A stretch of 64,000 bases of DNA from Thermacetogenium phaeum DSM 12270 (GTDB taxonomy: Bacteria; Bacillota; DSM-12270; Thermacetogeniales; Thermacetogeniaceae). Every line of letters starts with the position of its first letter. The stretch's first letter is position 1. The notes beneath the pieces were generated by a model, which saw only the letters and a program-made list of their open reading frames with translations, was not told the DNA's origin and searched no databases. Positions 8,277-52,279 of the stretch are shown here, in pieces. The position numbers and the translations under genes were made by a program. Location: positions 389,942-453,941 of the forward strand of contig NC_018870.1 of NCBI RefSeq assembly GCF_000305935.1, given 5' to 3'.

Positions 8277-8326
8277 GGAACGAGAGATTAACCAAAATAA
8301 GGTATAATACCCGGGAAGGGGGTGCA

Positions 8327-9463
8327 GTGATGCTTCAGAAGGTTATCAGAATACTCCTTACGCTGATCGGGGCAGGAATCGGCTTTTCTTTGAATTATCT
8401 GTTGATAAGACTTGATTTTGTGCAGTCGCTGGCTGCGGGGGAGGGCTTCGCCTGGTACGCCTTGGTTGGTCTGCTGACGCTGGTGGCAGGTGCGGTAACT
8501 TATCTCGCAGCCCCCCGCCTGATCGAGCTGACGCTGCAGATGGTTTCTTTCTTCGAAGGGACGCTGCAGCGCACACCGCTGCAGGATTTGCTGGGGGGTG
8601 CTCTCGGACTCATCGTCGGCCTGGTTATCGCTAATCTCCTCGGAGCTCCTTTTTCTAATCTTCCCTGGATAGGCCCCTTCATCCCCATCGTTGCCAGCAT
8701 CATCCTGGGCTATTTGGGCCTGAGCGTGGGCTTGAAGAAGAAGGAGGAGCTGGCCGGCCTCTTTTCCTTCATTAAAATCGGCAGCAAGCAGGGGCGAGGA
8801 GAGGGAGGCAAGAGCACTTATAAGGTACTGGATACCAATGTCATCATTGACGGCCGGATTGCGGACATCTGCAAGACCGGTTTTCTCGAAGGGACGCTGT
8901 TGGTGCCCCGCTTCGTGCTGGAGGAGCTGCAGCACATCGCCGATTCCTCGGATGTGCTCCGCCGCAATAAGGGCAGGCGCGGGCTGGACATCCTCAATCA
9001 GATGCGCAAAGAGCAGGGGATTAAAATCGAAATTCGCGACTTTGAGGGGCTGGACCGGAAGGACGTTGATTCCGGCCTCATCCAGATCTGTAAGCGGCTC
9101 GACTGCCCGGTGGTGACCAATGACTACAACCTGAACAAGGTGGCGGAGCTCGTCGGGATTAAGGTCCTCAACATCAACGACCTCGCCAACGCCGTCAAGC
9201 CTCTCTTTCTCCCCGGTGAGGAGATCGACGGGGTTGACGTGATCAGGGACGGCAAGGAGGCGGGGCAGGGAATTGCCTACCTGGAGGACGGCACCATGAT
9301 CGTCATCGAAGGCGGGAAGAAGTACATCGGGGAGCGCATATCGGTGGTGGTCACCAGCGTTCTGCAGACCTCGGCAGGGCGGATGATCTTCGCCAAGCCG
9401 AAGGTCAACTTGAAGGATACGGCCGCCGGTCGCCACTACCATGAGGTGAAGGTGATTGGATAA
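8327..9463 (+). CDS. membrane-anchored PIN/TRAM-domain protein (YacL type)
   Basis: 378 residues. Four hydrophobic segments fill roughly the first 145 residues. A PIN nuclease-like domain starts at YKVLDTNVIIDGRIADI, with further acidic residues at VTNDYNL; a C-terminal TRAM RNA-binding domain (GIAYLEDGTMIVIEGGKKYIGE) completes the YacL architecture. The acidic centre suggests metal-dependent RNA cleavage, but the cellular target is not established. Start is GTG 8327 or the adjacent ATG 8330, behind GGAAGGGGG. The stop overlaps the ispDF start by 8 bp, so the two are translationally coupled. Confidence 0.92.
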   Translation: MMLQKVIRILLTLIGAGIGFSLNYLLIRLDFVQSLAAGEGFAWYALVGLLTLVAGAVTYLAAPRLIELTLQMVSFFEGTLQRTPLQDLLGGALGLIVGLVIANLLGAPFSNLPWIGPFIPIVASIILGYLGLSVGLKKKEELAGLFSFIKIGSKQGRGEGGKSTYKVLDTNVIIDGRIADICKTGFLEGTLLVPRFVLEELQHIADSSDVLRRNKGRRGLDILNQMRKEQGIKIEIRDFEGLDRKDVDSGLIQICKRLDCPVVTNDYNLNKVAELVGIKVLNINDLANAVKPLFLPGEEIDGVDVIRDGKEAGQGIAYLEDGTMIVIEGGKKYIGERISVVVTSVLQTSAGRMIFAKPKVNLKDTAAGRHYHEVKVIG

Positions 9464-18440: not shown

Positions 18441-19778
18441 CTAGGCTCGCCGCACCCGCAGGTTCAGTCCCTCCATGGCGGTGATCACCACCTTTTCGCC
18501 TGCCTTGATGGGGCCCTCTTCGGATACTGCCCGCCAGAGTTCGCCTTCGACGAAGACCAGGCCCTCCGGGAGCAGGTCCGAGCGGGCCGTTCCCATGCGC
18601 CCGATCAATCCTTCGCTTCCTGTGGTCACGGCTCTTTTCTGCCCCCGGACTACGGCTGTGACCAACAGCGCCACCAGGGCGGCGAACACCAGGGCGGTGG
18701 TGACGATCAGGGAGATGTTGATCCCTATTCCGGGAGGGCCGCCGCTGAAGAGAAGCAGCGATCCGGTGACGAAGGAAATCACTCCTCCGGCACCCAAGAT
18801 CCCGTGGCTGGGCACGAAGGCCTCGGCGATGAAGAGCCCGAAAGCCAGAATGATCAAGAGCACTCCCCCCCAGTATGCGTCGAGTGTTCCCAGAGAATAG
18901 AGGCCGAGCAGCAGGGAAATGGCGCCGGCAACTCCGGGAAAGATCAGGCCGGGGTTGTAGATTTCCACCATCAGGCCGGCCATGCCTACCGTCATCAGGA
19001 TGTAGGCCAGGTCCGGATTGCTCAGGGCGAGCAGGGTCTTTTCAACGGGGTTCATCGAGAGGTTGACGATGGGGGCGCCTTTCGTCCGGAGCTCCACCCG
19101 GGCGCCGCTGCTTAAGGTAACCGTCTTGCCGTCCAGCTGCCGGAGCAGGTCCTCGAGGTCTTGCGCTCGCAGGTCGATGAGGTTGAGCTTCAAGGCTTCG
19201 GCATCGGAGTAGGATTTGCTCTCCCGCACCGCCTGCTCCACGGCATCGGCGTTCTTCCCGCGCAGCTGGGCGATGGAGCGCGCCCAGGCGGCGGCGTCCT
19301 CGGTGATCTTTTGGCTGGGAATGTCCTGCTGCTGACCGTCGGAGGGGCCGATCCCGACCGGATGGGCGGCGCCGATCCGGCTTCCGGGGGCCATGGCGGC
19401 TACGTGGGCGGAAATGGTGATGAAGGTCCCTGCCGATCCCGCCCATCCCCCGGCCGGAGAGACGTAGACGATAACCGGGACCCGGGCGTTGAGGATGGTG
19501 GTGACAATCTCCTGGGTGGTGGTGTAGAGGCCGCCCGGGGTGCTGAGTTGAATGACGCAGGCCGTTGCCCCGAGGTTTTCGGCGTGGCGGATGACCCTTT
19601 CCAGGTACTTGGCGGTGATGGGAACGACAGCTCCATCGTAACCGGCTACCACCACGGGCGGGTTTCCCTCTACCGCCCGGACGGAAGGGAGCGGCGTCCC
19701 CAGGTTCAACAGAAGGGCCAGGAGGAGAATGCTGCCCAGGAGCGCTGCTCCCCGCTTTGCGGCGCGCAAATCGTTCAT
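18441..19778 (-). CDS. nfeD: NfeD-family protein with ClpP-like serine protease domain
   Basis: 445 residues: signal/anchor (14-35), ClpP-like protease domain (about 40-230) with the serine in GGWAGSAGTFITISAHVA and a lysine in PSQKITEDAAAWARS, four membrane segments (about 255-375), and a C-terminal OB-fold NfeD domain (LIGRMGTARSDLLPEGLVFVEGELWRAV). This long form cleaves stomatin-type substrates in archaea, and the slipin gene lies downstream. Ribosome site AGGAGAGGAA. No base-level defect seen. Confidence 0.94.
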   Translation of the reverse strand: MNDLRAAKRGAALLGSILLLALLLNLGTPLPSVRAVEGNPPVVVAGYDGAVVPITAKYLERVIRHAENLGATACVIQLSTPGGLYTTTQEIVTTILNARVPVIVYVSPAGGWAGSAGTFITISAHVAAMAPGSRIGAAHPVGIGPSDGQQQDIPSQKITEDAAAWARSIAQLRGKNADAVEQAVRESKSYSDAEALKLNLIDLRAQDLEDLLRQLDGKTVTLSSGARVELRTKGAPIVNLSMNPVEKTLLALSNPDLAYILMTVGMAGLMVEIYNPGLIFPGVAGAISLLLGLYSLGTLDAYWGGVLLIILAFGLFIAEAFVPSHGILGAGGVISFVTGSLLLFSGGPPGIGINISLIVTTALVFAALVALLVTAVVRGQKRAVTTGSEGLIGRMGTARSDLLPEGLVFVEGELWRAVSEEGPIKAGEKVVITAMEGLNLRVRRA

Positions 19779-20053: not shown

Positions 20054-20089
20054 TTAAAAAAAGTGGTGATCGGGAGGCGATCACCACTT
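20054..20089 (-). terminator. intrinsic terminator of tupA
   Basis: AAGTGGTGATCG (20061-20072) and CGATCACCACTT (20078-20089) form a 12-bp perfect stem; the minus strand continues TTTTTTTAAACG. Confidence 0.9.
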
Positions 20090-20096
20090 GAGCTTT

Positions 20097-20972
20097 TTAC
20101 TGCATTCCGATTTCCTCTTCGCTCTTCCCGGCATCGGGGATGAAGAGCGGCTGGCCGTATTTGTCTACTCCGAAATCACCGATGATTCGCTGGGTTTCGG
20201 GGCTGATCATGAATTCCACAAACGCCTTGGCACCAGCGGCATTGACCTTGGGGAACTTTTCCGGGTTGACCTGCATCACGTGATAGATGTTGAGGAGCAT
20301 CGGGTCCCCTTCCATCAGACTCGCCAGCTTGAGGTTGTCCTTCTGAGCGAGATAGGTTCCTCTGTCGGTGAGGGTGTAGGCGTTCTTCTCGGAGGCCAGG
20401 CGCAGGGTGTCCGCCATTCCGCTGCCGGCTTCCAGATACCAGTCGCCGGCGGGGGTCACACCTAATTTATCCCAGATGGCCTTTTCCTTCTTATGAGTGC
20501 CGGAGTCATCCCCCCGGGACACGAAGGTGAACCGGCCGTTCATGATCTTCTTAAAGGCCTCAGTTGCGTCCTTCTCTCCCTTGATCTGCGCCGGGTCGTC
20601 TGGCGGCCCCACGATGATGAAGTCGTTGTGCATCACCAGTTGGTAGTTGATCACGTCCCCGTTCTCGACCAGAGGCCGTTCCGATGCCGGAGCGTGGGTG
20701 AGGAGGACGTCCGCTTCGCCTTTTTTGCCCATTTCCAGGGCCTCTCCTGTGCCCCTGTCGATGGGCTTGACCCTGTACCCGGTTTTCTCCTCGAAGATGG
20801 GGATGAGTTCGTCCAGCAAGCCGGTGTCGACGGTGCTGGTGGTTGTGGCCAGGATGACATCCTTCTTTGCAGCGGCCTGTTCCTGCTGTTCACCGCAGCC
20901 GGCGGCAAAGGCCAGGATGGAGCAGAGGAACAGAAAAAGGATGCCGGTGGACAATCTTCTGTTCGGCTTCAT
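20097..20972 (-). CDS. tupA: tungstate-binding lipoprotein TupA
   Basis: 291-residue periplasmic-type binding protein for tungstate. Lipoprotein signal ending FAAGC, then the family sequence VILATTTSTVDTGLLDELIPIFEEKTGY, RGTGEALEMGKKGEADVLLTHAP and FVSRGDDSGTHKKE, whose T-T-S-T and S-R-D-S residues form the oxyanion site. Start at ATG 20972 with AAAGGAG 9 nt upstream; the frame extends to 21011 without a ribosome site. No TupB permease or TupC ATPase is adjacent. A riboswitch-like leader precedes it. Supplies the metal for the AOR at 41.3 kb. Confidence 0.93.
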   Translation of the reverse strand: MKPNRRLSTGILFLFLCSILAFAAGCGEQQEQAAAKKDVILATTTSTVDTGLLDELIPIFEEKTGYRVKPIDRGTGEALEMGKKGEADVLLTHAPASERPLVENGDVINYQLVMHNDFIIVGPPDDPAQIKGEKDATEAFKKIMNGRFTFVSRGDDSGTHKKEKAIWDKLGVTPAGDWYLEAGSGMADTLRLASEKNAYTLTDRGTYLAQKDNLKLASLMEGDPMLLNIYHVMQVNPEKFPKVNAAGAKAFVEFMISPETQRIIGDFGVDKYGQPLFIPDAGKSEEEIGMQ

Positions 20973-21110: not shown

Positions 21111-21255
21111 ATAAAAAAAGCCAGGTACGGAAAGTACTCTGGCCCTGTCTTCGCTCTCCTTTCCGTGCCGGGAGGCGCGCTCGTTTCCGAAGCGCACCCA
21201 GTGGTCCTGCTGCCATAGCCCAAGAGGCCTTAGGAGGGAGGACTCGGAGAATGTC
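21111..21255 (-). promoter_or_regulatory. probable Moco/Tuco riboswitch with attenuator upstream of tupA
   Basis: On the minus strand the leader reads CTCCGAGTC (21249-21241), GGACCAC (21207-21201), GCGCGCCTCCCGG (21180-21168) and ACGGAAAGG (21166-21158). It is followed by a stem GCCAGAGTAC/GTACCTGGC and seven Ts (21143-21111). The conserved-looking blocks and their order resemble, from memory, the Moco/Tuco RNA. The aptamer-then-terminator layout about 140 bp before a tungstate transporter gene fits a riboswitch. A covariance-model search would decide. Confidence 0.58.
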
Positions 21256-21335: not shown

Positions 21336-21720
21336 CATCCTCGCTTCGCCTGTCCCGTTAGCCGGCCTTCCATAGGTCGCTGGTCGCTCGCCGGTCGACC
21401 GGCGGTTTTTTCATGCTCTGTTGGTGCCGCCGGAGGCGGCGTGAGGGTCTGCCCTGAAAATGCGTTTATCCTTGCGCTTGCCCCCGGACTTTCGGTTTAA
21501 ATTGCCCTAAGACTTGTCGATAGATAAGCAGCCGACCGGCTCCTATGCGCCTTCCCTGCCGCAGAGTCGCCTATCTCGAGATCATATCTCGATTCGGCTG
21601 CTCGCTCTGCTCCTTCGTCATGGGCGGGTAACAACCTCCGTCAGGTCGCTGCGCCGGCAAGGATAAATCCTTTTTTCGTTCCTCTGTTAGGGCAGCCGCT
21701 GGCGGCATGGTAGTCTGCTG
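21336..21720. repeat. cluster of mosaic GC-rich intergenic repeats
   Basis: 21364-21435 repeats the CCTTCCATAGGTCGCT block and both hairpins of 18215-18290. 21595-21705 matches 26240-26365 (CTCCTTCGTC, GTAACAACCTCCGT, AGGTCGCT, GCGCCG, GATAAA). No coding sequence is convincing between the tupA leader and the spore-protein gene. Confidence 0.65.
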
Positions 21721-21880
21721 AGAATATTGCCATCTGTTCCGACCGGCAGGCAATCATGACGGCTGATACCGGCGGCCTTGCCGCCATTTTTCGTCAGATA
21801 TTCTGGAGGTACATCGCCGGAAGGCCGGCCTCTCATATTTCCCATTCCCTTGCGAAAGAATAATGTAAGGGGTGATGCAG

Positions 21881-40808: not shown

Positions 40809-41297
40809 TTGCGGATGGCAAAGGTACTGATGCTCAATCCTGAGAAGTGTATATCCTGCCGCACCTGCGAACTGGCGTGTTCATTTAAACATGACAAAGA
40901 GTTTCGCCCCAGTGCGGCGCGGGTCAATGTGGTGCAGTTTGAGAAAGAGGGGATTTCTGTACCACTGATGTGTCTGCAGTGTGACACTGCAGCGTGTGAA
41001 AAGGTCTGCCCCACGGGGGCGCTTAAGCGCAATATAGCGACAGGTGCCCTGGAGGTAGATGACAATAAGTGCATCCGCTGCAAGATGTGCATTCAGGCCT
41101 GTCCCTTTGGCAATGCCTCCTATGATTCCGTGAAGAACCGGGTTCTCCGCTGCGACCTCTGTGGTGGCGATCCGCAGTGCGCCCGGTTCTGTCCCGGTGG
41201 AGCCATCACTTACGTTGAGGCGACGGCGGGGGCGCTGGCCAAGAAACGGGCGTACGCTGCAAAATTCAAAGAGGTGCTGCAGGAGGTGAGCAAATAA
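40809..41297 (+). CDS. polyferredoxin subunit with four [4Fe-4S] sites (AorA/HycB type)
   Basis: 162 residues (or 160 from ATG 40815) with sixteen cysteines in four clusters: [37 protein letters not shown] and [15 protein letters not shown]. This is the HycB/DmsB fold used as an electron-transfer subunit. It corresponds to the small subunit paired with tungsten AOR in bacteria such as Aromatoleum. The stop overlaps the aor start (TAATG), so the two subunits are co-translated. First gene behind the sigma-54 promoter. Confidence 0.93.
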
Positions 41298-43102
41298 TGT
41301 ACGGCTGGGTAGGTCGGATTCTGCGTGTGAACTTAAGCGACGGAACCATTAAAAAAGAGCCCTTGGACCCGATAGAGGCCAGGAATTATATCGGTGCCCG
41401 GGGATTGGGGACTCGCTTCTGGGTCAAGGAATGTGACGCCGAGATCGATCCCCTTAGTGAAGCAAACAATTTAATCTTTATGACCGGTCCTCTGACCGGT
41501 ACACTGGCAACTAATGCCGGTCGCTACAATGTTATCTGCAAGGCGCCGCTCACCGGGGCTATGGCGGCATCAAACTCAGGAGGCTATTGGGGGCCCGAAC
41601 TGAAATACGCCGGATATGACGGGATCATCATTGAAGGCAAAGCTGAGAAGCCGGTTTATCTCTGGATCAACGACGATCAGGTGGAGATCCGGAGTGCAGA
41701 GCATCTCTGGGGCAAAGACGTCAATGAGACGACCGATACCCTGCGCAATGAAACCGACTTCGATGCCCGGGTGGCGTGCATCGGGCCGGCAGGGGAGAAC
41801 CTGGTTAAATTCGCCTGCGTCGTCAACGACTATACCCGTGCTGCCGGGCGTTCCGGCGTCGGAGCGGTTATGGGCTCCAAAAACCTGAAAGCGGTAGTGG
41901 TCAAGGGAACTGGAGCGGTCAGGGTAGCGGATCCCGATGCCTTCATGGAAGCGCTGGCGAAGGCGAGAGAAATGGTCAAGAACCATCCGGTGACCGGTCA
42001 GGGGCTGCCTGCCTATGGCACCGGAATACTGGTAAACATCCTTGATCAATCCGGTGGTTACCCGGTCAACAACTTCCGCGATTCCGGGCAGTTTCAGTTC
42101 GCCGAGGAAACCAGCGGTGAAACCCTGGCCAAGACCTATCTGGTTCGCAACAAGGGCTGCATGGGCTGCGGCATTGGCTGTGGGCGGATCACCCGTGTAC
42201 CCGAAGGGCCTTATAAGGGATTCGGAGAGGGCCCCGAGTACGAAGCCCAGTGGTCGCTGGGGGCAGACTGTGGGGTTGGTGACCTGGCGGCGATCCTCAA
42301 GGCCAACAACTACTGCAACGAGCTGGGGATGGATCCTATTACACTGGGTAGCACTATTGCTTGTGCTTTTGAACTCTACGAAATTGGAGCCATTACTGAG
42401 AAGGAAACCGGGATACCGTTGGGATTCGGGAATGCGGCAGCAATGGTTGAGCTTTCCAGAAAAGCTGCTTACAGAGAAGGTTTCGGCAATGATATAGCTG
42501 AAGGTTCTTACCGTCTGGCCAGCAAGTACGGGCATCCGGAACTGTCGATGAGTTGCAAGAAACAGGAAATGGCCGCCTACGACCCGCGCGTCCTGCAGGG
42601 GATGGGCCTCAACTACGCCACCAACAACCGCGGCGGCTGCCATGTCCGCGGCTATATGACCGCTCCGGAGATATTGGGAATTCCGGAGAAGCTGGACAAC
42701 CTGGCAACCGAAGGGAAGGCTCAGTGGACGAAGATCTTCCAGGATCTCACCGCGGCCGTAGACTCTTCCGGGATCTGCCTCTTCCTGACATTTGCCATCG
42801 GAGCACCGGAACTTTCCGAACAACTCACAGCTGCAACAGGGATTGACTTTACCGTTGAAGAAATAATGAAGATCGGCGAGAGGATCTGGAACATGGAGCG
42901 ACTCTTCCTCCTGGCGAACGGCTTTACCAAAGCGGACGATACGCTGCCGCCGCGCATTTTAAAAGAGCCGGTCAAGGTCGGCCCCTGCAAGGGAGCGGTC
43001 AGCAAACTGGATGTCATGCTTCCGGAGTACTACGAGGTGCGCGGATGGGACGCTGAGGGCAGGCCGACCCCAGAGAAGCTACAAGAGCTAGGCCTCCAAT
43101 AA
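41297..43102 (+). CDS. aor: tungsten-containing aldehyde:ferredoxin oxidoreductase
   Basis: 601-residue AOR-family enzyme that oxidises aldehydes to acids, or reduces acids, using a tungsten bis-pterin and one [4Fe-4S] cluster. Starts [22 protein letters not shown]; pterin-binding blocks include [25 protein letters not shown] and [23 protein letters not shown]. Cluster cysteines lie in [14 protein letters not shown]. Length is normal. Partners are the polyferredoxin upstream and a MoaD-like protein downstream. The substrate aldehyde is not fixed by sequence; adjacent alcohol dehydrogenases suggest short-chain aldehydes. Confidence 0.95.
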
Positions 43103-51268: not shown

Positions 51269-51345
51269 CGGGGTGTGGCGCAGTTTGGTAGCGCGCTTGG
51301 TTTGGGACCAAGAGGCCGGGAGTTCAAGTCTCCCCACCCCGACCA
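51269..51345 (+). tRNA. tRNA-Pro (TGG anticodon)
   Basis: 77-nt cloverleaf: acceptor CGGGGTG/CACCCCG, anticodon arm CTTGGT-TTGGGA-CCAAG with TGG, T-arm GTTCAAGTC, and encoded CCA. Confidence 0.95.
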
Positions 51346-51408
51346 CCGACATCCTGGATCTTGTAGACCTTCAAAACTTGTGTTAAAATACCAGCAGAAT
51401 TGATGCAT

Positions 51409-51482
51409 GCGGGTGTAGCTCAGTGGTAGAGCCCTGGCCTTCCAAGCCAGTCGGGTGGGTTCGATTCCCATCACCCGCTCCA
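51409..51482 (+). tRNA. tRNA-Gly (TCC anticodon)
   Basis: 74-nt cloverleaf: acceptor GCGGGTG/CACCCGC, anticodon arm CTGGCCTTCCAAGCCAG, T-arm GGTTCGATTCC, encoded CCA. Confidence 0.95.
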
Positions 51483-51492
51483 TTTTATTTAT

Positions 51493-51569
<77 letters not shown>

Positions 51570-51581
51570 TGAGAAAAGAGA

Positions 51582-51615
51582 ATGGCAAGGGCAAGTTAAT
51601 CGCCCTTGCCATTTA
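51582..51615 (+). terminator. terminator of the tRNA operon and intron target
   Basis: ATGGCAAGGGC (51582-51592) and GCCCTTGCCAT (51602-51612) form an 11-bp stem. The expected T-run is cut short after TTA by the group II intron. Confidence 0.85.
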
Positions 51616-51617
51616 GT

Positions 51618-52279
<662 letters not shown>

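Follow-up and report, generated by a model that had tools for sequence, protein, structure and literature searches.

The locus examined here raises the question of how tupA of the thermophile Thermacetogenium phaeum, a gene for a putative tungstate-binding protein, is controlled, and where the rest of the transporter that it would serve is encoded. The window, i.e., the whole stretch of 64,000 nucleotides that was analysed (NC_018870.1, positions 389,942 to 453,941), had been described in an earlier note as carrying a probable Moco/Tuco riboswitch upstream of an orphan tupA. We propose, with good confidence, that the tupA leader is a P3-lacking Wco/Tuco riboswitch that would repress by transcription termination, and that TupA would serve a distant but co-regulated TupBC.

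The covariance-model run that the earlier note had recommended for the reverse strand gives a significant RF01055 match by cmscan at window positions 21261-21140(-), which spans the full length of the model (positions 1-135). Its score of 65.5 bits is above the curated gathering score of 36 bits, and its E value is 1.6e-13 in the 64-kb window, by which a chance match upstream of tupA is ruled out, and 1.8e-15 in the whole genome. The four ordered blocks that had been pointed out all lie on the minus strand (CTCCGAG, 21249-21243; GGACCAC, 21207-21201; CGCCTCC, 21177-21171; ACGGAAAGG, 21166-21158); the location first given for the element, 21111-21255, holds, while its extent is widened slightly to 21261-21113. 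The P4 GAAA tetraloop and the conserved core CTCCGAG / CCTCCC / GGAAAGG are present and the invariant core positions of the class are unbroken, while the model positions of P3 are deleted in the alignment, so that there is no P3 stem. The pairing was assessed in an alignment of 20 P3-lacking RNAs (8 from T. phaeum and 12 that precede tupA in relatives), which leans towards RF01055 because the Rfam model itself was used to collect the rows. Pairing holds in 86.9% of the pair cells and compensatory change is both-sided in 22 of the 34 aptamer pairs, neither value being reached in any of 500 shuffles, and pairing falls to 36-49% when the partners are slid by 1-3 columns. Because RF01055 is well above threshold and two-sided changes are found in these pairs, the outcome that the earlier note had named as refuting its proposal, i.e., no model match and no conserved pairing, was not encountered, and the riboswitch is supported. 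The tupA leader is a new member of the Moco/W-cofactor riboswitch class and is ordinary in kind. A consensus scan gave no sigma-70 promoter match upstream of the riboswitch. In the long gap that precedes it, two terminator-like hairpins lie on the opposite strand, at window 21388-21405 and 21771-21785 (+).

Table 1. Features of the tupA locus and of the tungsten enzyme gene in the window (window coordinates).
Feature	Position	Strand	Evidence
Moco/W-cofactor riboswitch aptamer (RF01055), P3-lacking: P1, P2, P4 (GAAA tetraloop), P5	21140..21261	-	cmscan and covariation
Aptamer 3' segment ACGGAAAG: in the folded aptamer a part of P5/J/P1, otherwise predicted 5' strand of the antiterminator	21159..21166	-	complementarity
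Predicted antiterminator 3' strand CTTTCCGT, within the terminator's 5' arm and loop	21127..21134	-	complementarity
Intrinsic terminator: hairpin 21144-21120 and T7 21119-21113	21113..21144	-	fold and sequence
tupA, 291 aa tungstate-binding-like protein; Shine-Dalgarno-like GGAG 20985-20982	20097..20972	-	profiles, PDB relatives
Hairpin and T7 right after the tupA stop; stem GTGGTGATC/GATCACCAC	20063..20087	-	-15.2 kcal/mol
Aldehyde ferredoxin oxidoreductase (tungsten enzyme)	41297..43102	+	PF01314, E 2e-152 at 41948-43096

A terminator had been claimed to follow the blocks and to precede tupA, and it is found there (Table 1). Its hairpin has a folding energy of -14.1 kcal/mol (z -4.0), none of 200 shuffles being equally stable; it is not among the calls of a simple consensus scan, and its stem contains an unpaired base. 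ACGGAAAG is an exact 8-nt complement of CTTTCCGT, and the terminator is predicted to be exclusive of an antiterminator built from aptamer bases. In several relatives the corresponding sequences are GCGGAAA and TTTCCGC, in which a G-C pair replaces the A-U pair of the tupA leader by a change in each strand. A terminator is recognised in 65 of the 70 leaders compared, and in these the aptamer-terminator complementarity averages 6.77, against 5.92 in 300 terminator swaps (maximum 6.26) and 5.09 in 300 shuffles (maximum 5.45), with weak complementarity in some single leaders, including those of modABC, moe and the hydrogenase of T. phaeum. A cruder whole-platform duplex test gives p <0.05 in three of the eight T. 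phaeum leaders scored, and the best duplex that it finds for the tupA leader is a pairing other than ACGGAAAG/CTTTCCGT. When the tupA leader is folded as a growing transcript, the aptamer is predicted at 102-114 nt and other folds at 120-126 nt, the minimum free energy structure being the antiterminator at 132 nt and the aptamer plus terminator from 138 nt. As modelled in this way, the leader is most likely an OFF switch acting via transcription termination: bound cofactor would keep P1 and P5 in place, so that the terminator would form and tupA would be off, and without cofactor ACGGAAAG would be free to pair with CTTTCCGT, so that the terminator would be blocked and tupA would be made. The leader could instead be a relic or a constitutive element whose terminator has stopped switching, as might be suggested by its long end branch in a weakly supported RNA tree (1.32 versus a median of 0.34) and by another RNA of the same genome (locus L018) that leads no gene, but this is very unlikely, given that the invariant core of the leader is intact, that matching changes maintain the antiterminator pairing and that the tupA reading frame is intact.

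Between the riboswitch terminator and the start of tupA are about 140 bases of leader. The predicted protein matches Pfam PBP_like_2 (1e-48) and has the tungstate-binding proteins 3LR1 and 5MY5 as relatives in PDB; it scores 229.7 bits with NCBIfam TupA NF041772, under the equivalog cut-off of 400. The putative name TupA is based on likeness to solved tungstate-binding proteins, not on NF041772 equivalog membership. Given the terminator hairpin directly after its stop codon, tupA appears monocistronic. The next open reading frames are an NfeD-like one (18441-19778, from reading its translation) and a short one, in agreement with the claim that the tungstate permease and ATPase are not adjacent. 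The tungsten enzyme that had been placed 20 kb away is likewise confirmed, its PF01314 domain being about 21 kb from tupA. By whole-genome positions, no RF01055 match precedes this aldehyde ferredoxin oxidoreductase gene, and a tungsten enzyme operon as the direct target of the riboswitch was rejected, as none of the genome's 12 RF01055 matches has one of the six AFOR_C matches a short way downstream. The gene has a near-identical copy at G000:847646-848794 (2643 bases, 99.77%).

The description of TupA as an orphan is true only locally, because a tupBC pair that lacks tupA is found on the circular chromosome at a distance of about 594 kb, preceded by a P3-lacking RNA of its own (RF01055, 80.1 bits). 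This tupB (G000:2755043-2755732(-)) adjoins a gene for an ABC ATPase, and its product is fitted better by the TupB model (153 bits) than by that of ModB (107 bits). Two further, weaker TupB matches (29-31% identity) are to permeases of other kinds, ModB among them; no second TupA was found in the genome at E 0.001, and T. phaeum has no contiguous tupA-tupB-tupC. By sequence and genome layout, this tupBC is a plausible partner of the lone tupA. TupA would thus work with a permease and ATPase encoded far off, and a ligand shared by the two riboswitches would co-regulate both halves of one tungstate importer, such that the two switches together appear to do the job of a single operon. TupA might otherwise be a true loner that uses another permease, such as ModBC, or that does no more than bind or buffer tungstate, with TupBC otherwise employed. 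We regard this as unlikely. TupA and TupB fall into separate transporter lineages and TupA-only loci recur, as described below, but the two proteins are each other's sole good candidate in the T. phaeum genome, most of the genomes without a tup operon that were searched have TupB elsewhere, and one relative (G018) keeps both halves on one contig about 2.5 kb apart, each led by its own RNA.

Among 20 related genomes, for which the class and order searches gave the same set, the RNA is found upstream of all 13 clear tupA genes (that of T. phaeum and those of 12 relatives, whose TupA proteins are 61-73% identical to it), two genomes with only a weak or contig-edge match being left out of this count. 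TupB of the T. phaeum type occurs in six genomes of the family (75-100% identity), and in four of them (T. phaeum, G002, G018 and G019) the RNA is directly upstream of tupBC; no RNA was found within 1.5 kb of the distant tupBC of G008 and G009. In seven relatives tupA and tupB adjoin each other, as is usual, and TupB is only 45-47% identical to that of T. phaeum.

A wider, named set comprised the best 80 of 397 relatives and overlaps the family genomes, L106 being from the same organism as G019. TupB is close by at 53 of these 80 tupA loci (24 with the RNA, 27 without and two with too little upstream sequence) and absent nearby at 22 (17 with and five without), the remaining five (three with and two without) not being judged for a nearby TupB. 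The RNA is commoner at the loci without a nearby TupB (Fisher p 0.021, uncorrected for relatedness), of which the five without RNA (L126, L130, L161, L167 and L179) belong to Desulfarculales, Desulfobacteraceae, Desulforhabdus or Syntrophobacteraceae. Of 25 genomes with no TupB near tupA, 22 have one elsewhere, which in G021, G023 and G024 is on the contig of tupA, some kilobases off. Five of these 22 genomes have an RNA within 1.5 kb of the distant TupB and 17 have none, and wider flanks, available for 12 of the 17, still contain no RNA. Tandem RNAs, two or three in number, precede tupA at L183, L141, L136, L129, L158, L153, L177 and L112.

The two halves of the T. phaeum system differ in their kinship. 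In a further sample of 299 genomes of the phylum, with loci for 12 of 25 matches, TupB of the T. phaeum type is found at lower identity in nine genomes in which tupA adjoins tupBC (some partly seen at the edge of the locus). An R1 match is present at eight of these nine loci, L241 giving weak ones only. As aligned, the TupA proteins of these genomes are only about 44-48% identical to that of T. phaeum, versus 56-68% for those of classic operons. In phylogenetic trees, T. phaeum TupA and its split kin are inside the classic lineage (SH-aLRT 95), and T. phaeum TupB is inside the other lineage (98-99). AU tests, from which the TupA row L159_A1 was left out for its great branch length and seven TupB rows for duplicating sites already represented, reject forcing TupA to the sister group given by the TupB tree (p 0.002); they reject neither joining TupA of the split group with all TupA of the other lineage (p 0.144) nor agreement for TupB (p 0.093). 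These sequences suggest an exchange of the binding protein between two tungstate-transporter lineages, which we grade only as likely because two of the three AU tests are compatible with agreement.

The genome assembly, one contig of 2,939,057 bases in agreement with the single circular chromosome reported in the available portion of PMC3551663, has 12 RF01055 matches over the cut-off, eight without P3 and four with P3. Of the P3-lacking RNAs, three precede transport genes (tupA, tupBC and modABC), and four others precede a formate-dehydrogenase-like gene and the genes for a sigma-54 regulator, an aldehyde dehydrogenase and a NiFe hydrogenase (L016). The eighth, at L018:7878-8001(-) (G000:341221-341344), looks intact and has a terminator, with no same-direction gene of at least 150 aa close downstream. 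At L013:2690-2845(+), a TwoAYGGAY RNA (RF01731, 46.2 bits vs 43) lies between the P3-lacking RNA and the formate-dehydrogenase-like gene. The four P3-bearing RNAs lead mobA/mobB/moeA, moeA/moaA/moaC, an XdhC-like operon and an ABC/NTPase operon with a molybdopterin oxidoreductase. The aptamer, the terminator, their complementarity, their conservation and this genome layout are read directly from the sequence; we infer from it the ligand, the direction and kinetics of switching and the partnership of TupA with TupBC. RNAs without P3 have been proposed to be tungsten-cofactor (Tuco) sensors (Regulski 2008, PMC2408646). By its missing P3, the tupA leader fits this Tuco (Wco) subclass, the tungsten cofactor being its most likely ligand.

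The absence of P3 is not a clean rule for the ligand, as modABC of T. phaeum is also led by a P3-lacking RNA. Among the 44 RNA-led tupA loci of the named set, 40 are without a recognised P3 (L107, L116, L118, L180 and L132 being judged by alignment and the rest by match length), and P3-bearing RNAs lead tupA operons at L107, L116, L118 and L180, contrary to the published P3 rule. The same riboswitch and mechanism might therefore respond to Moco, or to both cofactors, instead of Wco alone. In addition to the modABC leader and the four P3-bearing tupA leaders, this alternative is favoured by the finding of Regulski 2008 (PMC2408646) that in E. coli regulation was lost on deletion of P3, with no conversion of specificity. 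The two types nevertheless segregate in the T. phaeum genome: the P3-bearing RNAs all lead mob, moe, moa, XdhC-like or molybdopterin oxidoreductase operons, and both tup loci are led by RNAs of the P3-lacking type. We consider a ligand other than Wco alone rather improbable, and continue to favour the tungsten cofactor. With both aptamer types and a split importer in one genome, the claim that P3 decides between Mo and W becomes directly testable, and the P3-bearing RNAs at four tupA loci elsewhere offer natural exceptions with which to test it.

Much of this has known counterparts. The aptamer resembles the Moco/Tuco riboswitch RF01055 in sequence and structure, in the P3-lacking variant and in its position upstream of Mo/W transport genes, and the accessible portion of the same paper (Regulski 2008, PMC2408646) already describes terminator-type platforms and genomes with many copies (eight in D. 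hafniense and at least 15 in S. wolfei). The association of these riboswitches with transporters is also known, a review (PMC9971707) describing molybdate or tungstate transporters as frequent partners of MoCo/WCo riboswitches. Unlike the cases in the sections of Regulski 2008 that were covered, the T. phaeum copy leads a monocistronic tupA, with the permease and ATPase elsewhere behind another copy. As in TupABC of Eubacterium acidaminophilum, which is named there, TupA, TupB and an ABC ATPase are recognisable, but the T. phaeum system is split into tupA and tupBC, whose products group with different lineages. Tandem Wco riboswitches, reviewed in PMC9481103, are of the same class; that review names hydrogenase genes as targets, and a hydrogenase of T. 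phaeum is likewise RNA-led, but the tup loci of T. phaeum have single copies at separate genes. We recognised no description of a split tupA/tupBC under separate copies in the Moco/Wco riboswitch literature, mostly represented by less than full text, and the word riboswitch is absent from the available parts of three T. phaeum papers (PMC3551663, PMC6436200 and PMC6895022). What stands out is a split transporter of mixed lineage that is placed under two switches.

More tentatively, and with somewhat more doubt than conviction, the W-cofactor riboswitch may be seen as portable glue of a tungsten regulon, in which lineages swapped the binding protein, far-apart halves keep their switches and tungsten-free substitutes are also led by the RNA. 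If so, low cofactor would raise tungstate uptake and turn on the NAD-type aldehyde dehydrogenase, with its divergent sigma-54 regulator, and the NiFe hydrogenase. The NAD-type aldehyde dehydrogenase may be a tungsten-free substitute that is turned on at low cofactor. This tungsten-independent enzyme and the sigma-54 regulator are led by a divergent pair of P3-lacking RNAs (L014:7882-8001(-) and 8302-8419(+); G000:2190043-2190580). Such a pair is again flanked by sigma-54 regulator and aldehyde dehydrogenase genes in G006 and G008, and likewise occurs in G019, where the dehydrogenase is only a contig-edge piece. Elsewhere in the window, at 51269-52279(+), three tRNA genes are directly followed by group II intron parts (RF02001, RF01998 and RF00029).
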